From positions 1 to 42,506 of the forward strand of contig DUOV01000053.1 of NCBI GenBank assembly GCA_012838615.1: a DNA stretch of 42,506 nucleotides. The letters are read 5' to 3'. The translations under genes were made by a program, and so were the position numbers. The notes beneath the pieces are model-generated. The model made no database searches. It saw nothing but the letters and a program-made list of their open reading frames with translations, and was not told the origin of the DNA. This stretch comes from Clostridia bacterium (GTDB taxonomy: Bacteria > Bacillota > DUOV01 > Zhaonellaceae). Shown in pieces: positions 5,088 through 27,062 of this stretch (position 1 is the first letter of the stretch; each line of letters starts with the position of its first letter).

Positions 5088-5350
5088 CCTCATCTCTTGT
5101 AGGTGAGGTAGAGGTGCGAGTAATCAATAGTAACATTTATGATTGGGAAAAATGATTAAGTGTGAAAGGGATTCTCGCCGAAGTCCATTTTCTTCCCAAA
5201 GGAATTGGGCTGGGTCTGCATCAAAAAGGTGTAGAACTGTCATATGGGGATACCTGGTCCTCATATGGAGCACTATCTCTCTAACAGGTGATGGGCATTT
5301 TTGTGACACAAAGGCTGTGGGCATTTATGCTCTTTTAGCCTTTTTTTTTT
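5088..5350 (+). promoter_or_regulatory. Lysine riboswitch (L box) with terminator
   Basis: The conserved L-box core is clear: GGTAGAGGTGCGAG, GTGAAAGGGA, CGCCGAAG, the GGGCTGGGTCTGCAT element, ACTGTCAT, and GGAGCACTATCTCTC. P1 forms from GAGGTAG (5105-5111) and CTATCTC (5272-5278). A terminator, AAAGGCT/AGCCTTT plus a run of T (5310-5350), follows. CCTCATCT/AGGTGAGG at 5088-5108 can form an alternative hairpin that uses the 5' arm of P1. Lysine binding should stabilise the aptamer and allow the terminator, shutting off dapB and probably the genes after it. The ORFs drawn across this region are artefacts. Confidence 0.95.
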
Positions 5351-13012: not shown

Positions 13013-13762
13013 ATGAGTAAAAAAGTAAAGGCGCAGAATTTAGAACATGAGGAAAAACCTTCATCTAAACCACAAACTACAGCAGAGAATTCCACAAAGG
13101 ATGATTCTATTAAGGAATTCGGTCAATTAGAACTACCTGAGGTTAAAAGCAATATACATTGTCTAACTATTATTGGTCAAATAGAAGGTCATTTGGTTAT
13201 GCCTCCCCAGAATAAAACAACAAAATACGAACATATTTTGCCACAATTGGTTGCTTTGGAACAATCAACTGAAGTCCAAGGAATATTGATAATATTAAAT
13301 ACGGTTGGTGGTGATGTAGAAGCAGGACTGGCTATAGCTGAAATGATTGCAAGCTTGTCTAAGCCAACTGTAACATTAGTTTTAGGTGGAGGCCATAGTA
13401 TTGGAGTGCCAATTGCAGTCTCAAGTGACTATTCATTTATTGCTGAAACTGCTACTATGACCATTCATCCTATACGGTTGTCAGGACTTGTTATTGGAGT
13501 TCCTCAAACTTATGAGTATTTAGACAAAATGCAAGATAGAGTTATTCGCTTTGTTACTAGACATTCAAATATTCCTGAAGCAAAGTTCAGAGAACTAATG
13601 TTTAGAACAGGAGAACTGGCTAGAGACATAGGAACTGTCCTAGTGGGAAAAGAAGCTATAGACGTAGGTTTAATTGATGAGGTTGGCGGGTTAGGTTCTG
13701 CTATCAAAAAATTAAAAGATTTAATTGAATTGTGCCGGGCAGACATAAAAGGGGAGATGTAA
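13013..13762 (+). CDS. tepA: TepA, ClpP-like translocation-enhancing protein
   Basis: The 249-aa protein belongs to the ClpP/crotonase serine protease fold. Its Ser lies in [11 protein letters not shown] and a His in MTIHPIR, typical of TepA; in B. subtilis TepA has been linked to degradation of signal peptides or spore proteins. The N-terminal ~40 residues are charged and low complexity. ATG 13013, six nt after AGGGAG, is chosen over the ATG at 12995, which lies before that site. ylzJ follows with no gap. The tepA-ylzJ-spoIIIE order is conserved in Bacilli, although here nptA intervenes. Confidence 0.92.
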
Positions 13763-13999
13763 ATGCTGCTATACACACCTTTACCTATGGAAGTTGTGCT
13801 AGAAGGATTAGAAAAAGCAAGAGATTATCACGAAGTTCAAATCGGTGATGTAACAATGATCTTAGAGCGAATTAGCGATTCTGAAAGCAAAATAGTAAAG
13901 CTTATTAGTACAAATCCTAATGACTTTTTAAATCCAACGCTACAACCTGGTAAAATTGTATCAGCTACTTTATTTTTAGACAAAAATAGCTACCTTTAA
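13763..13999 (+). CDS. ylzJ: YlzJ-like protein
   Basis: This 78-aa protein begins MLLYTPLPMEVVLEG, the usual start of YlzJ. The start codon abuts the tepA stop, with GGGGAG inside the end of tepA, so the two are translationally coupled. Function is unknown. The terminator stem overlaps its last codons. Confidence 0.85.
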   Translation: MLLYTPLPMEVVLEGLEKARDYHEVQIGDVTMILERISDSESKIVKLISTNPNDFLNPTLQPGKIVSATLFLDKNSYL

Positions 14000-14015
14000 C
14001 AGGTGGCTATTTTTA
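13983..14015 (+). terminator. Rho-independent terminator after ylzJ
   Basis: AATAGCTACCT (13985-13995) pairs, with one mismatch, with AGGTGGCTATT (14001-14011), followed by T. The 5' arm lies in the ylzJ coding region. Confidence 0.8.
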
Positions 14016-14038
14016 GATTGCATACAGATGATAATCTA

Positions 14039-14068
14039 TTTAAAAATTTTTTAGGAATATGATATAAT
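14039..14068 (+). promoter_or_regulatory. Promoter for the Na+/phosphate transporter gene
   Basis: TATAAT at 14063-14068 with an extended TGA just before it, and a weak TTTAAA -35 (14039-14044) 18 nt upstream. Confidence 0.5.
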
Positions 14069-14111
14069 TTATCGGGTTATGTTGATTTATATAGGCACGA
14101 GGTGGAAAAAA

Positions 14112-15719
14112 ATGCAGGAATTAATCTTTGGTTTACTTGGCGGACTGGCTTTATTTTTATATGGTATGGATTTAATGGGTGAAGGACTTCAAAAGGCCGC
14201 AGGAAATAGAATGAGGCGTATTTTAGAAGTCTTAACTGGTATTCCGATAATCGGTGTTTTAGTTGGTGCTTTGGTAACTTCCATCATTCAAAGCAGTAGT
14301 GCAACAACTGTGATGACTGTTGGTTTTGTAAATGCAGGATTATTAACATTAAAGCAGGCTATTAGCGTGATTATGGGTGCTAATATTGGTACAACCATGA
14401 CTGCTCAACTAATTGCATTTAAGCTAACTAAATATATTTTACCCATTATAGCTCTAGGTTTTGTTTTTTATTTTTTCAGTAAGAAAAAATCACACAAATA
14501 TTTTGGGCAAGTTATTCTTGGATTTGGCATCTTAATGTTTGGTATGGAATTAATGGGTGACGCTATGTCTCCTTTAGAACATTTTCAAGGTTTTAAAGAT
14601 TTTATGACCCAATTTAGTAATTATCCGTTAATGGGTGTAGGCGTAGGGATTGTTATGACCATGCTTATCCAGAGCAGTAGTGCTACTATTGGTATTTTAA
14701 TCGCTTTAGCATCTTCGGGTTTGATACCTTTGGAAGGAGCAATACCTATTTTACTTGGTGACAATATTGGAACCTGTATTACTGCCGTATTAGCTTCTAT
14801 TGGAACCAACCTTGCTGCTAAAAGGACTGCCATTGGTCATGTTTTTTTTAATGTGTTTGGCTCCATAATTTTTATAACATTTTTAGGCTTTTTCATAAAA
14901 TTTGTCCATTTGATTTCTCCGGTTAATGACATTGCTAGGCAAATTGCCAATGCTCATACTTCCTTTAACGTACTTAATACAATTATTTTTCTGCCTTTAA
15001 TCAACCAGTTCGTTAACCTTATTTTAAAGCTTGTCCCTGGAGAAGAAAAAGTTATAACGAAAGGTCCTATCTATCTGGATAACAGGACCCTGGCTAGTCC
15101 TACAATTGCTTTACAACTTGCTAGCAAAGAAATAATTCGTATGGCAGAGATGGCTCTTCAAAATGTTAGGGACGCCATGAACTGTTTATTCAGTAAAGAG
15201 GATAAAGATTTAAAAAATGTTTTCGATTACGAACCTGTTATTGATGAATTAGAAGAAGATATTACGGCATACTTAGTTCGTGTCTCCCAAGAAGGTTTAA
15301 ATCCGGAATCATCTAAATTTCATACAGGTTTGCTTCACGCTGCTAACGATATTGAGCGCATCGGTGATCATGCTGAATACATTGCCAATATTACTAAACA
15401 ATATATTGAGGCAGGCTTGTCTTTTAGTGAACAGGCTGTAGATGAGATGAAGACTTTATATGACCTGGTTGAGCAAAGTTATTCTAAAACAATAAAGGCA
15501 TTACAAAAGGATGATCAACAATTGGCTCGAGAAGCAATGCTCATTATTAATAAAGCCAGTCAGCTTGAGAAACAGCTACGTAACAGTCACATTGAGCGCC
15601 TTACGGCAGGTACTTGTTTACCTGCATCTGGTGTATTGTTTTTAGATGTGCTGAGTAATCTTAAAAGGGTAAGCGATCATGCTCATAATATTGCTCAGGT
15701 AGTTTTAGGCGAAGTTTAG
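14112..15719 (+). CDS. Na+/phosphate cotransporter family protein with PhoU domain
   Basis: The 535-aa protein has about eight to ten membrane segments in two inverted PNaS repeats, each carrying the signature QSSSAT (IIQSSSATTV and LIQSSSATIG). A cytoplasmic C-terminal PhoU-like helical domain covers about residues 340-535. This is the NptA/YjbB type, which moves phosphate coupled to sodium; direction (uptake or export) cannot be told. ATG 14112, seven nt after GAGGTGG, is preferred to the upstream ORF-track start. It is a single-gene unit with its own promoter, inserted between ylzJ and spoIIIE relative to Bacillus. Confidence 0.92.
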   Translation: MQELIFGLLGGLALFLYGMDLMGEGLQKAAGNRMRRILEVLTGIPIIGVLVGALVTSIIQSSSATTVMTVGFVNAGLLTLKQAISVIMGANIGTTMTAQLIAFKLTKYILPIIALGFVFYFFSKKKSHKYFGQVILGFGILMFGMELMGDAMSPLEHFQGFKDFMTQFSNYPLMGVGVGIVMTMLIQSSSATIGILIALASSGLIPLEGAIPILLGDNIGTCITAVLASIGTNLAAKRTAIGHVFFNVFGSIIFITFLGFFIKFVHLISPVNDIARQIANAHTSFNVLNTIIFLPLINQFVNLILKLVPGEEKVITKGPIYLDNRTLASPTIALQLASKEIIRMAEMALQNVRDAMNCLFSKEDKDLKNVFDYEPVIDELEEDITAYLVRVSQEGLNPESSKFHTGLLHAANDIERIGDHAEYIANITKQYIEAGLSFSEQAVDEMKTLYDLVEQSYSKTIKALQKDDQQLAREAMLIINKASQLEKQLRNSHIERLTAGTCLPASGVLFLDVLSNLKRVSDHAHNIAQVVLGEV

Positions 15720-21463: not shown

Positions 21464-22012
21464 ATGAATTTAGCGAACCAGTTAACGTTGGCTAGAATAA
21501 TATTAGTACCATTGTTTATGGTTTTTCTCTTGGTTAAGACAACTTATGGACAGCTCATGGCAGCTGTAGTATTTATAGTTGCAGCAGCAACTGACATTTT
21601 AGACGGTTATATAGCAAGAAGTAGGAAACAAATCTCTAATCTGGGTAAAATCATTGATCCTCTCGCGGATAAATTATTAATTTCTGCTGCCCTCATATCT
21701 TTAGTTGAATTAAGCTTGGTTAAAGCTTGGGTTGCTTTTATTATTATTTCCAGAGAATTTGCAGTAACGGGTTTAAGAACAATTGCTGCAGTAGAAGGGC
21801 ACGTAATAGCGGCTAGTCCTTTGGGTAAATTAAAGACTATATGCCAATCTGTGGCTGTTGTAGCAATTTTGATTCAAAATTTACCCATACCATATTTACC
21901 AATACTGGCAAAAATACTATTATACTTTGCAGTTTTTATTACAATTTATTCTGGAATTGATTATTTTTTAAAGAATAAAGACCTATTAAATATTGATAAG
22001 GAAGGGTTATAA
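21464..22012 (+). CDS. pgsA: CDP-diacylglycerol-glycerol-3-phosphate 3-phosphatidyltransferase
   Basis: PgsA makes phosphatidylglycerol phosphate, the committed step to phosphatidylglycerol and cardiolipin. The 182-aa integral membrane protein has the CDP-alcohol transferase signature D-x2-DG-x2-AR-x8-G-x3-D-x3-D, visible as DILDGYIARS...GKIIDPLADK. About four to five membrane segments are seen. GGGGAG lies within the end of rimO and ATG directly follows the rimO stop, so the two are coupled. In Bacillus, cinA and recA follow pgsA; here they do not. Confidence 0.95.
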   Translation: MNLANQLTLARIILVPLFMVFLLVKTTYGQLMAAVVFIVAAATDILDGYIARSRKQISNLGKIIDPLADKLLISAALISLVELSLVKAWVAFIIISREFAVTGLRTIAAVEGHVIAASPLGKLKTICQSVAVVAILIQNLPIPYLPILAKILLYFAVFITIYSGIDYFLKNKDLLNIDKEGL

Positions 22013-22070
22013 GCCCTTTTTTATTTCCCTTTTTACCACCCTTTTCATAAGGTTTGAATTGGACAAGTAT

Positions 22071-22078
22071 GCTATAAT
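22071..22078 (+). promoter_or_regulatory. Extended -10 promoter for the 22.1-25.5 kb cassette
   Basis: TATAAT at 22073-22078 with TGC directly before it. No good -35 is present at 17 nt. It lies 28 nt before the first cassette gene. Confidence 0.5.
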
Positions 22079-22105
22079 GGCAACATAAAATGGGGGTGAA
22101 TAGTT

Positions 22106-22660
22106 TTGCAAATCAAAGGCCTTCGAATACCTATTATCTTTATATGTGCATGTTTATCATTAGCTATATTGACAGGAGGCCAGTGGGCTTATAAGGAGTT
22201 TTCCGTTGAACGTCCTTTTATTAGGGAAATTATTAATCTTAACAACGTTGAAAATGTTGAGCTTATAGGTGATTCTGACTTACCAAAGCTTGTAATAAAA
22301 CTAGGTTCTAACGCAGATTTGGCTAGTTTTATAGCTCAACTTAGGGAAATAGTTGCCAGTAATTATAAACGACAAGTAGAACTTCGATTAATTGACGAGA
22401 GAAATGAAGAATTAAACGATGTATTACTTACCAGTCGATTTTATATTTACGAAGCTCTTGTTAATGGCAATTATACTGAAATGTATTTTGAACTTGAACA
22501 GGTTCTGAACTCATTAGATCTTGACGAATGGGATTTAACTATGGACAATCAGTATATTTATTTAAAATTATACCAAGATTCTGCTTATCTTTATGAAATT
22601 ATACCTCTCAATCGGCAAATGTTAGTAATAGGTGGTGATATACCATATGCCTCTAATTGA
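22106..22660 (+). CDS. Membrane-anchored protein of unknown function
   Basis: This 184-aa protein was not recognised. It has a single N-terminal hydrophobic segment (about residues 8-27) with basic residues before it, so the rest should lie outside the membrane. The outer part looks like mixed alpha/beta, with alternating strands (NVENVELIG, LPKLVIKLG, YIYLKLYQ) and many acidic residues. The start is TTG, preceded by GGGGGTGA. Its end overlaps the following FtsH-like gene by 14 nt, suggesting coupled translation and a shared task, perhaps as substrate or partner of that protease; this last point is inference. Confidence 0.72.
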   Translation: MQIKGLRIPIIFICACLSLAILTGGQWAYKEFSVERPFIREIINLNNVENVELIGDSDLPKLVIKLGSNADLASFIAQLREIVASNYKRQVELRLIDERNEELNDVLLTSRFYIYEALVNGNYTEMYFELEQVLNSLDLDEWDLTMDNQYIYLKLYQDSAYLYEIIPLNRQMLVIGGDIPYASN

Positions 22661-24128
22661 AGCTAGCCTAGGGATTGCCATAGGCTTTTTAACTTTCTTG
22701 ATTATAGTTGGTTACGACGTTTTTCCATTTATTCTACTTTTAGCTTTTGGCCTTGCTTTTTATTTTATAGTAGTACAAAAAGGCACAGTAGCAATTAAAT
22801 CTAGAGGAAATTGCCAGTCAAGTACTACAGTAACTTTTCAAGATATTGGGGGTCAAAACATTGCCAAGAAGGAACTGATTGAAGCCCTTGATTTTATAAT
22901 TACATCCGAGAAAACAAAGTCTTTAGGCATTAGGCCGTTAAAAGGTATTTTGCTGACAGGTCCTCCGGGTACTGGAAAAACGATGCTTGCTAAGGCTGCT
23001 GCTGCCTATACTGATGCCGTATTCATTGCTACTGCAGGTTCTGAGTTTATTGAAATGTATGCTGGTATTGGGGCTCAGCGTGTTAGAAGCATTTTTAAAA
23101 AAGCCAGGGATTTGGCCAAAAAGAAAGACAAGCCACGAGCTATTATATTTATTGATGAGATAGAAGTAGTAGGTGGGAAACGGGGCAGCCATACCAGTCA
23201 TCTAGAATATGATCAGACTTTAAACCAATTGCTGGTTGAAATGGATGGGATAGAAACCGATAAAGATGTAAATATTCTTGTGGTAGCTGCTACTAATAGG
23301 GTTGACATGCTGGATTCAGCTTTACTACGTCCTGGAAGATTTGATCGTGTAGTTAAAGTAGATTTACCTGATAAAGAAGGACGTTTACAAATTCTAAGAA
23401 TTCATACAGCCAATAAGCCATTAGATAACGATGTTGACTTAGAAGCAGTTGCTCAAGAGACTTTTGGTTTGTCTGGTGCCCATCTAGAAAATATAACAAA
23501 TGAGGCTGCTATTTATGCTTTGCGGGACAAAGGCGAAAAAATAACTCAGAAACATTTTATTGAAGCCATTGAAAAAGTTATGTTGGGCGAAAAATTAGAT
23601 AAAAAACCCGCTCTTAAAGAGTTAGAACGTGTTACTGTTCATGAATCCGGGCATGCCATAATGAGTGAGGTGCTTAGGCCCGGTTCAGTAGCTCATGTAA
23701 CGATTACTCCTCGCGGAGGAGCTTTAGGTTATATGCGTCAGAAACCTGAAAATGATATGTATCTTTATACGAAAAGTTACTTGCTAAACCAGATTAAAAT
23801 AGCGGTGGCTGGCTCCGTAGCTGAAGAAATATTTTTTGGAGAGCGGAGTACAGGAGCTGTTAATGATTTTAATGAAGCTATAAAGTTAGCTAAACAAATT
23901 GTATTGTCTGGCCTGTCAGATTTAGGTATCGTTGATATGAATAAGGAAGATGATTCTGTCAGCCAAGAAGTAAAAAAAATTGTGCATTGTCAAGTTAATG
24001 AAGCAAGAACTATTTTACTAAGTAAAAGGCCCTTGTTAGAAGCTTTAATAGAACAACTAAAACTTAACGAAAAAGTAACTGGGAAGCAATTACAAGATTT
24101 AGTACACAAATTTAGTAAGTGCGCATAA
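22647..24128 (+). CDS. Short FtsH-like membrane AAA+ zinc protease
   Basis: The protein has 493 aa from ATG 22647, with GGTGGTG nine nt before; the ORF-track GTG at 22632 is part of that site. Two closely spaced hydrophobic segments (about residues 5-22 and 25-44) replace the usual pair separated by an extracytoplasmic domain. The AAA+ domain has Walker A GPPGTGKT (105-112), Walker B IIFIDEI, and the second region of homology ending LLRPGRFDR. The M41 protease domain has HESGH (H332, E333, H336) and the third zinc ligand D407 in AVNDFNEA. FtsH proper is about 600-650 aa, so this is a reduced paralogue. All catalytic residues are intact. It probably forms a hexamer at the membrane. Confidence 0.88.
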   Translation: MPLIEASLGIAIGFLTFLIIVGYDVFPFILLLAFGLAFYFIVVQKGTVAIKSRGNCQSSTTVTFQDIGGQNIAKKELIEALDFIITSEKTKSLGIRPLKGILLTGPPGTGKTMLAKAAAAYTDAVFIATAGSEFIEMYAGIGAQRVRSIFKKARDLAKKKDKPRAIIFIDEIEVVGGKRGSHTSHLEYDQTLNQLLVEMDGIETDKDVNILVVAATNRVDMLDSALLRPGRFDRVVKVDLPDKEGRLQILRIHTANKPLDNDVDLEAVAQETFGLSGAHLENITNEAAIYALRDKGEKITQKHFIEAIEKVMLGEKLDKKPALKELERVTVHESGHAIMSEVLRPGSVAHVTITPRGGALGYMRQKPENDMYLYTKSYLLNQIKIAVAGSVAEEIFFGERSTGAVNDFNEAIKLAKQIVLSGLSDLGIVDMNKEDDSVSQEVKKIVHCQVNEARTILLSKRPLLEALIEQLKLNEKVTGKQLQDLVHKFSKCA

Positions 24129-24157
24129 TTTTTTAGGGCAAAGGGAGGTGGATTATT

Positions 24158-25543
24158 ACGGATAGAGGCAAAGTCAAAATTCTATTAGTTGCTTTGTTGG
24201 GAGCTGTCATTGCCATTGCCTTGTTTAACCAAACTCAGTTTTCTTTAACCTCCCTAGATTTTCTGCTTTCATTACAATTATTTTCCAAAGGTGAAACAGA
24301 GATTAAGGTGCCACCTTTAGGTACAGTTTCTGCCCCAACTCATTTATTTCCAGTAAAAATAATATTAGTCCTAAACAATATTAATTTTAAAATTTTAGAA
24401 GAAATGATTGCTAAGGGATTTGGACAACAACAATTATTTGATAATTTACGTGTTGAATTAATTCGATTTTTGAAAATTTACTTTATAAAAATATTTATAC
24501 TAAGTGTGCTCGGGGCAACGATTGCTACTTTTTTATATTCAGGTAATCTAAAATCTTCATTAAAAAGCAGTATAATTGGTCTGTGTCTGGCAAGTACAAT
24601 CATCGGCGGAATCTACTCTGGGTATGACTATAAAAAATTTTATAATCCTGAATATTATGGAGCATTGGAGAATGCTCCTTGGATGTTGGAACTCCTTCAA
24701 GATGGTTTAGAAAAGATGGAAAAACTCGGTGAAAAAATTGAAACTGTTGCTCAAAATGTAGACGTTTTGTATAGGAATTTTGAACAAAGTGTAGCGTTCA
24801 ATCAAGGTGATGAATATACACAGATATTGCATGTATCTGATATTCACAACAACCCTATAGCATTTCGGTTTATAGAACAGATAGTAGAGAGCTTTGGTGT
24901 AGATATTATTGTAGACACAGGTGATCTGACTGATTTTGGTACTCCGTTAGAAACATTCTTTTTAGAAAAAATTGAATCTCTAGAAATTCCATATTTATTT
25001 GTAGCAGGTAATCATGATTCTCCCCAGGTAATTAATGCCTTATCTGGTGTTAATAATGTGATTAACGTAAATAAGAAAATTGTAAACGTTAAGGGTATTG
25101 ATTTTATCGGAATTAATGATCCTGCTTCGGTAAGCAACAAAGTAATTCCGCCAGCACAAGAAGAGATAAATGAGTATGCTGCACAGCTTAATGAACTTAT
25201 GAACTCTAGCCAAAGAACACCGGATATTATGTTGATTCATAATCCCCAATTGGCTAATCAATTTACAGGCCGTTTACCTACTGTTTTATTTGGGCATAGT
25301 CACCAACATGCTATTGAAATTGATAAAGGAACCGTACTTGTCAATGCAGGAACAACTGGAGCTGCTGGTATTCGGGGTCTAGGAACAACACAAGAAGTTT
25401 CGTATACCTTGGTTCTATTAAGCTTTCAGCAACAACAATTTGATACGGTCGAGGTTAAATGGCAACTTGTAGCTACGGACACTATTAAAATTTTCAATTC
25501 TAAACCCGGGTTTGTTGTTGAGCATCAAGTCTACACAAAGTAA
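24158..25543 (+). CDS. Membrane-anchored metallophosphoesterase
   Basis: The calcineurin-like phosphoesterase domain (C-terminal ~240 residues) has all metal motifs: SDIHNNP, DTGDLTD, AGNHDS, LIHNP and FGHSHQHA. The N-terminal half has hydrophobic segments near residues 8-24 and about 110-155, so the protein is anchored in the membrane. The ORF-track start (TTG 24194) has no ribosome site and lies inside the first hydrophobic segment. A good GGGAGGTG ends at 24150. The only in-frame codons at correct spacing are ATT 24155 and ACG 24158, so a non-standard start is proposed (461 aa from ACG). It starts 29 nt after the FtsH-like gene. Substrate is unknown. Confidence 0.85.
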   Translation, partial: TDRGKVKILLVALLGAVIAIALFNQTQFSLTSLDFLLSLQLFSKGETEIKVPPLGTVSAPTHLFPVKIILVLNNINFKILEEMIAKGFGQQQLFDNLRVELIRFLKIYFIKIFILSVLGATIATFLYSGNLKSSLKSSIIGLCLASTIIGGIYSGYDYKKFYNPEYYGALENAPWMLELLQDGLEKMEKLGEKIETVAQNVDVLYRNFEQSVAFNQGDEYTQILHVSDIHNNPIAFRFIEQIVESFGVDIIVDTGDLTDFGTPLETFFLEKIESLEIPYLFVAGNHDSPQVINALSGVNNVINVNKKIVNVKGIDFIGINDPASVSNKVIPPAQEEINEYAAQLNELMNSSQRTPDIMLIHNPQLANQFTGRLPTVLFGHSHQHAIEIDKGTVLVNAGTTGAAGIRGLGTTQEVSYTLVLLSFQQQQFDTVEVKWQLVATDTIKIFNSKPGFVVEHQVYTK

Positions 25544-25570
25544 TCAGAAGTTTAGTGTATTATGGTTACC

Positions 25571-25600
25571 TTGCCAAGGGATTTGCCATTATGTTATAAT
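25571..25600 (+). promoter_or_regulatory. Promoter of the pheST T-box transcript
   Basis: TTGCCA (25571-25576), 18 nt, TATAAT (25595-25600), with TGT just before the -10. It lies about 150 nt before the recognisable T-box, so the leader is unusually long. The 62-aa ORF that crosses it is not a gene. Confidence 0.7.
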
Positions 25601-25754
25601 CTATTTAAATTAAGTTCCCCCAAAAGAAGTGAGAAAGGTTGTGGTGCTGTTGTTGTTACCCGCCGAAATTTTTTGGAGGATTTTCGAGAAAACAGGATCA
25701 GTTGTTGCTTATATTATGTATCGAAAGCTTATCATTCAATAGTTGGATGAAATA

Positions 25755-26010
25755 TTATGAACGGGATAAGTAGTAGGTTTAAAAACCTATCCAGGGAAAT
25801 AGTACCAGAGACTGAAAGTGCTATTTAGGTTTTTCTACGAATTTCCCCCGGGAATAGCAAGCTGAATTCAGCAAGTCTGATAGTAGGTAATGCCGGACTC
25901 CACCGTTAAATGGATTACTAAAGAGAGAATTGTTTTTTTAGCAATTAATTTTGGGTGGTACCGCGGAAGCAGCCTTTCGTCCCATAGGATGAGGGCTTTT
26001 TTTATTGTAG
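25755..26010 (+). promoter_or_regulatory. T-box leader for pheST (Phe specifier)
   Basis: Stem I starts with GGGATAAGTAGTAG, the usual 5' signature. The arm AAAAACCT..AAATAG pairs with CTATTT..AGGTTTTT. A TTC triplet at 25843-25845, in the region expected for the specifier loop, would read tRNA-Phe. The conserved T-box TGGGTGGTACCGCG is at 25952-25965. A terminator with bulges, GCCTTTCGTCC/GGATGAGGGC, ends in T8 (about 25972-26004). Uncharged tRNA-Phe should favour the antiterminator and switch on pheST. The specifier assignment depends on the fold and is supported by the genes downstream. Confidence 0.93.
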
Positions 26011-26039
26011 GTAACTTATACAAGTAAGGAGGATAAAAG

Positions 26040-27062
26040 ATGCGGGAAGAATTACTGAAAATTCAGGAGCAAGGTAGTGTTGAGTTAAATAATGCTCAAA
26101 GTCTTGAGGAATTAAATCAATTACGCATAAAATATTTAGGTAAAAAAGGACTATTGACTCAAGTTTTGCGAGGTATGGGTTCCTTGGAAGCCTCCGAAAG
26201 GCCTATTGTCGGTCAATTAGCAAACGAAATAAGAGACAGCTTAGAACAATGTCTTGCTGCTAAAAATAAATATCTGCAGGAAAAGGCATTACTTTTGCGC
26301 CTAGAAGAAGAAGTAATCGATGTTACATTACCTGGCAGACCAATAAAATTTGGTAATAAACACCCCTTGACTTTGATTCTCGAAGAAATTAAAGGAATCT
26401 TTACCGGAATGGGATTTACTGTCGCTGACGGTCCAGAAGTGGAACTTGATTATTATAACTTTGAAGCTCTTAATATTCCAAAAGATCATCCTGCAAGGGA
26501 TATGCAGGATTCATTTTATATAACTGATGAAATATTATTAAGAACCCATACTTCGCCTGTGCAAGCTAGAGTGATGCAAGCTATGACTCCAGAACTTCCA
26601 GTTAAAATAATTGCTCCAGGTAAGGTTTTTAGGAGGGACGATGACGCTACTCACTCACCTATGTTTCATCAAGTTGAAGGCCTGTTAGTTGATAATAAAA
26701 TTACCTTTGCTGATTTAAAGGGAACATTGCTCTCATTTGTACGGCAGATGTTTGGTTCTGACAGGCAAATTCGCTTAAGGCCAAGTTATTTCCCATTTAC
26801 AGAACCGAGTGCAGAGGTTGACGTTTCTTGCTTTAATTGTGGGGGACAAGGTTGTCGAGTTTGTAAAGATACTGGATGGATTGAAATACTAGGAAGTGGC
26901 ATGGTTCATCCAAATGTCTTACAAATGTCCGGGTACAATCCCGAGCAAGTTACAGGTTTTGCTTTTGGAATGGGTGTGGAACGGATAGCCATGCTTAAAT
27001 ATGGTATAGATGATTTACGTTTACTTTTTGAAAATGATGTGCGTTTCTTAAGTCAGTTTTAA
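26040..27062 (+). CDS. pheS: Phenylalanyl-tRNA synthetase alpha subunit
   Basis: PheS carries the catalytic core that charges tRNA-Phe as an (alpha-beta)2 enzyme. The 340-aa protein has an N-terminal coiled coil (residues 1-85), class II motif 2 around [21 protein letters not shown], the cysteine-rich [12 protein letters not shown] segment, and motif 3 [21 protein letters not shown] lies 9 nt before ATG. It is under T-box control and is followed after 15 nt by pheT. Confidence 0.97.

Follow-up and report, generated by a model that had tools for sequence, protein, structure and literature searches.

The short FtsH-like protease described here (FtsHs) and the anchored protein encoded directly upstream of it (P1) form an obligate gene pair, which occurs throughout the spore-forming Bacillota, is nearly absent from the non-sporulating ones and has been lost together with the sporulation marker SpoIVA repeatedly. 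Probably the two constitute a second, specialised membrane AAA+ zinc protease serving the spore-forming life cycle, with P1 as its fixed outside-domain partner. A metallophosphoesterase gene (MPE) follows the pair and is a looser companion of it.

In the window (the whole stretch of DNA analysed, 42,506 nucleotides), the three genes lie on the forward strand, preceded by pgsA, which ends at 22012, and followed by the T-box leader of pheST (25748-25987). Open reading frames and Pfam matches bear out the original prediction of a three-gene cassette made up of P1, an FtsH-like protease and a membrane metallophosphoesterase, and the 14-nt overlap that it gave for the first two genes is exact (22647-22660). 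A pattern scan found a terminator-like hairpin between pgsA and P1 (21995-22025, forward strand; 14 pairs, 3 of them G-C, and a T-rich tail), weak evidence that suggests a promoter of the cassette's own. The extended -10 promoter-like element proposed upstream of P1, TGCTATAAT, is present at 22070-22078 on the forward strand, but it has no good -35 and was not among the matches of a promoter scan of the window, in which sites were no more numerous than in shuffles. The gene order pgsA, then cinA-recA, against which the locus had been read, holds in relatives, where the cassette is inserted between them; the window's MPE precedes the T-box and pheST instead (25543-26040), in a place where the loci L093 and L132 have thpR and/or recA-recX-rny. 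Judged by gene order, this region just downstream of the window's cassette is a local rearrangement. Elsewhere in the window, a lysine riboswitch (119 bits, 5101-5283) stands directly upstream of dapB and a dpaA-dpaB-asd-dapG-dapA cluster.

FtsHs (22647-24128, forward strand, ATG start) is a 493-aa FtsH-like AAA+ zinc protease with a transmembrane (TM) hairpin and without an extracytoplasmic domain. It matches the Pfam families AAA (2e-37), AAA lid (2e-11) and Peptidase M41 (5e-32), and it has the features that broadly define M41/FtsH-type AAA+ proteases, namely an AAA module with arginine fingers and an HExxH motif with a distant Asp. Against TIGR01241, the model for FtsH (HflB), it scores 437 bits, under the curated 600, and covers only profile positions 145-597. 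The catalytic motifs of the protease, which had been called intact, are so throughout its relatives: Walker B, ATNR/RPGRFDR and HExxH are kept in all 129 FtsHs sequences, the third zinc ligand (D407) in 128 and the Walker A pattern in 122. The FtsHs of locus L134 (genome G051) has HETAH for HExGH and is the sole one of the 129 without the glycine.

FtsHs thus shares with FtsH the AAA module with its arginine fingers, the HExGH motif with its Asp and two N-terminal TM helices, and its mean identity to the canonical FtsH of the same phylum is about 39%. The differences are of several kinds. FtsHs has 493 residues and no extracytoplasmic domain, whereas the ordinary FtsH that the window's genome also encodes elsewhere has 649 residues and does have that domain; the N-terminal hairpin of FtsHs has almost no outside loop, and the median number of residues ahead of the AAA module is 69, compared with 141 in canonical FtsH. 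Fourteen positions separate the two types cleanly, among them the pore loop (mostly YAG in FtsHs versus FVG). FtsHs also differs in having an obligate partner, in being limited to spore formers and in occurring beside a canonical FtsH. A third FtsH-like gene, for a protein of about 480 aa with 42% identity to the window's FtsHs, lies at 13687-15120 of the oriented locus L130 (genome G046, C47:18607-20010), on the opposite strand a few kilobases from P1-FtsHs, and is possibly a further paralogue without a P1.

P1 (22106-22660, forward strand, TTG start, 184 aa) was originally described as an unrecognised, outward-facing anchored protein, and this description stands: a single TM helix at the N-terminus, its positive charges facing inside, is followed by a conserved alpha/beta domain outside, and searches of Pfam and NCBIfam returned no family for P1, nor for its relatives beyond single chance matches. 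The homologues vary in sequence, sharing 19-38% identity with the window's P1, and have conserved residues at D97, L103, G121, D147 and L162-Y163, and no stretch is conserved enough for a genome profile search with P1 alone. In an AlphaFold2 model built with 33 aligned sequences, the outside domain has a pLDDT of 90 and the element order helix-strand-strand-helix-strand, an order that in this model would be compatible with ring-building-type folds of the EscJ, SpoIIIAG and YhcN type. A fold search gave weak and partial matches to EscJ and YhcN, which fit in element order (alpha-beta-beta-alpha-beta); since no match reached E<=0.001, we claim no fold name. Sequence matches of P1 to AsnC-like or designed proteins in the PDB were weak, and those in Pfam and NCBIfam were chance matches of single members.

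The pairing of P1 with FtsHs was followed in a phylum sample of 61 genomes, mostly one per family. FtsHs occurs in 51 of these, beside canonical FtsH. A single-sequence search found P1 in 41 of the 61, always adjoining FtsHs or at a contig edge, and in every one of the 48 testable loci an anchored open reading frame of 153-266 aa (starts untrimmed) lies directly upstream of FtsHs. This upstream frame matches the window's P1 by BLAST in 38 of the 48, and nine of the remaining ten match a P1 profile built without them. Across about 50 families, then, 47 of 48 testable relatives have a homologue of P1 immediately before FtsHs. The two frames overlap in 33 of the 48 loci, by exactly 4 nt in 12, and no fusion of the two genes was noticed among the loci read.

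A search of named genomes with a 79-residue FtsHs fragment containing the YAG pore loop and the EYDQTLN signature extended this result. Among the best 80 of 579 matches, P1 adjoins FtsHs in all 77 loci that could be judged (two by inspection), and the carriers among these 80 include Moorella, Pelotomaculum, Thermoanaerobacter, Natroniella, Fuchsiella, Sulfobacillus, Thermaerobacter, Alicyclobacillus and many metagenome-assembled genomes (MAGs). One MAG labelled Desulfovibrio (L151) has a Bacillota-type cassette with spoIIIE-rimO synteny and is probably mislabelled or contaminated. The commonest gene order is rimO-pgsA-P1-FtsHs-(cinA)-(MPE)-(thpR)-recA-recX-rny, but the pair is also found after prkC-rsgA-rpe, next to a GerAB/GerAC-like operon and, in Alicyclobacillus, between ypmB and asnS-dnaD (genes beyond those of the window were named by eye from their sequences). 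Chance adjacency and mere synteny are ruled out by this joint movement between unrelated contexts, which argues for a functional pair.

In ordinary FtsH the outside domain lies between the TM helices. Because FtsHs lacks this domain and always occurs with P1, the two are most simply read as a protease of two subunits. FtsHs would then be a hexamer whose ATPase and protease parts face the cytoplasm and whose anchor is the predicted TM hairpin, and P1, as a separate single-pass protein, would provide in trans the outside domain that FtsHs is missing. The two would form a physical complex with P1 as trans-domain or adaptor, a fixed partner that might select substrates or sense the outer face. In FtsH-HflKC and the mitochondrial AAA protease-prohibitin assemblies, too, a membrane-bound AAA protease is accompanied by an accessory membrane protein whose domain lies on the opposite side of the membrane, and P1-FtsHs, as predicted, resembles both in this respect. 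It differs from them in that P1 matches neither the SPFH family nor any other known one and, from FtsH-HflKC, in that the P1 gene is joined to that of FtsHs by overlap, whereas hflKC is a separate operon.

P1 had been put forward as either adaptor or substrate, and it is the role of partner, adaptor or trans-domain that fits better. An alternative is that FtsHs has P1 as its dedicated substrate, a regulated membrane protein made alongside the protease that degrades it; the single-pass topology of P1, its variable sequence and its translation together with the protease would suit such a role. Yet FtsHs without P1 was never seen in testable loci, the P1 domain is confidently folded with conserved residues, as a partner's would be, and a protease of general function would have no need of the same substrate wherever it occurs. 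Given the strict pairing, we consider it very improbable that P1 is a mere substrate, although a single pair in which P1 is both partner and substrate is conceivable.

The link of the pair to sporulation emerged from a presence/absence survey of 300 genomes, all within the phylum, with SpoIVA as the marker. FtsHs is present in 206 of 246 SpoIVA-positive genomes and in 6 of 54 SpoIVA-negative ones (p=1.4e-24); in the 61-genome sample it is absent from all six SpoIVA-negative genomes. Four of the six SpoIVA-negative carriers have SpoIIIAE, so that 210 of the 212 carriers have one or the other gene, and one SpoIVA-negative carrier assembly is only 72% complete. The one real exception among the six is G105 (family f23), a complete 5.6-Mb genome that has FtsHs and lacks both SpoIVA and SpoIIIAE, and whose relatives sporulate; such a genome is a natural test for a role outside sporulation or for a recent loss of sporulation. 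Conversely, FtsHs is missing from 40 of the 246 SpoIVA-positive genomes and is therefore not needed for sporulation everywhere.

These associations have to be weighed against the possibility that P1-FtsHs is a backup of canonical FtsH for general quality control of the membrane or for envelope stress, and that the link to sporulation reflects shared ancestry or gene loss in non-sporulating, often reduced genomes. A control gene for another membrane protein in the window, an Na/Pi cotransporter, is also depleted in non-sporulating genomes, and its correlation with SpoIVA indicates that shared ancestry inflates raw presence tables of this kind; its odds ratio, however, is 4.6, compared with 41 for FtsHs. 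On a tree of 80 genomes built from PheS and PheT, 13 independent pairs differ in SpoIVA. FtsHs tracks SpoIVA in about 8 independent pairs and goes the opposite way in none (p ~0.008), whereas the control gene gives about 4 in the same direction and 0.5 in the opposite one (p ~0.22). FtsHs and SpoIVA have been lost jointly in G081 (sister G275), G037 (sister G078), G282 (sister G011) and G185 (sister G058), and likewise in a clade next to the window's own family. Reduction of the genome does not account well for this pattern, as non-sporulating genomes of 2.5-3.4 Mb (G031, G142, G144 and G174) also lack FtsHs.

Two further observations lend the general-protease explanation some weight. Most carriers keep the pair among the housekeeping genes pgsA, cinA and recA, and a consensus scan of 125 upstream regions found SigA-like sites enriched upstream of P1 in relatives, with no enrichment of SigE-, SigF-, SigG- or SigK-like sites in these regions; an operon promoter lying farther upstream is conceivable. 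Expression of the pair thus need not be sporulation-specific; to judge from these sites, the pair may be made already in growing cells, or may act in early sporulation or germination. On the other hand, the general quality control that the original prediction had in mind is made less likely by the presence of canonical FtsH in all genomes examined, whether or not they also have FtsHs. On balance we regard a general backup protease as unlikely, if still worth serious consideration. The retention of canonical FtsH everywhere instead implies that FtsHs should have substrates of its own, tied to the trait with which it has been lost.

The third gene of the cassette, MPE, extends on the forward strand from about 24155 (the start is approximate) to 25543 and encodes a calcineurin-like metallophosphoesterase with three TM helices (Pfam Metallophos, 5e-15). 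There is no in-frame ATG, GTG or TTG before the TTG at 24194, and a start there would cut into the first TM helix. Translation likely begins instead at a rare ATT at 24155, 6 nt after the strong ribosome-binding site AAAGGGAGG (24140-24157 together with the probable start), a reading from local sequence features that puts MPE close behind FtsHs, as predicted, but at 26 nt past its stop and not at 29. Rare start codons can mark translational control. The MPE of L093, from the same family, also seems to be without a usual start codon at this place.

The phosphoesterase motifs are intact as well: the protein carries the calcineurin-like series D-x-H, G-D-x-x-D, G-N-H-D, H and G-H-x-H, and the metal ligands D229, H231, D257, N286-H287, H362, H381 and H383 are invariant in 18 homologues. 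Three TM helices are indicated by hydropathy, relatives and the model, although in the MPE of the window itself the third gives a weak signal, and with three helices the catalytic domain would lie outside. Among calcineurin-like phosphoesterases the best solved folds are Mre11, GpdQ and Rv0805, and MPE falls below the cut-offs for YfcE (42.6 versus 56.25 bits) and YaeI (25.6 versus 188 bits); compared with all five, it has in addition the three TM helices and, at its N-terminus, a further outside domain.

The original prediction had joined all three proteins into one membrane unit, and of this proposal the part that concerns P1 and FtsHs, which are adjacent, mostly overlapping and co-moving, is strongly supported, while membership of MPE is supported only moderately. 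A single complex of the three, acting as a protease-phosphoesterase signalling unit, would agree with the position of MPE here and within about 3.3 kb of FtsHs in some 20 of the 26 MPE genomes of the 61-genome sample, and with its distribution across the phylum survey, in which 106 of the 109 MPE genomes among 300 have FtsHs (3 do not) and all 109 carry SpoIVA or SpoIIIAE. But only 106 of the 212 FtsHs genomes have MPE, cinA often intervenes between the two genes, and at least 6 genomes of the sample have MPE in another place. We think such a three-protein complex quite improbable. MPE would rather serve the same trait as an auxiliary phosphoesterase acting on the extracytoplasmic side.

As for what a two-subunit P1-FtsHs protease would do, it would most likely remove particular membrane proteins at a stage transition, with the septum or engulfment, the forespore membranes and germination as candidate stages. 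According to one report (PMC10990147), FtsH degrades SpoIIE in the mother cell of B. subtilis, which provides a precedent for stage-specific removal of a membrane protein by an M41 protease with a part in spore development. In that case the work falls to the one general FtsH, whereas here a second, dedicated-looking paralogue has its own partner.

B. subtilis, the most thoroughly studied model of sporulation, is not known to carry the P1-FtsHs pair, and FtsH itself is universally conserved in bacteria as a membrane protease. A sporulation gene survey (PMC3533761) makes no mention of FtsH, and our literature searches found nothing on an FtsH paralogue in these organisms or on sporulation or germination phenotypes of P1-FtsHs mutants. 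Extra ftsH copies in acidophilic Bacillota have been reported and read as gene dosage (PMC10490939); because Sulfobacillus and Alicyclobacillus carry FtsHs, these copies may in part be FtsHs. A bolder reading, which we advance tentatively and hold to be somewhat doubtful, is that P1-FtsHs is an old, dedicated membrane protease of the Bacillota sporulation toolkit, with a separate and perhaps ring-forming outside subunit, that gene lists based on B. subtilis have missed because of its absence there. If a specialised two-subunit protease is indeed what the pair encodes, it would represent a new membrane AAA protease architecture, in which the outside domain has been dropped and is supplied in trans, and a new sporulation-linked function beyond the Bacillus model. 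It would also make testable which membrane proteins have to be eliminated as spores develop in most Bacillota, and what purpose the extracytoplasmic domain of FtsH serves.
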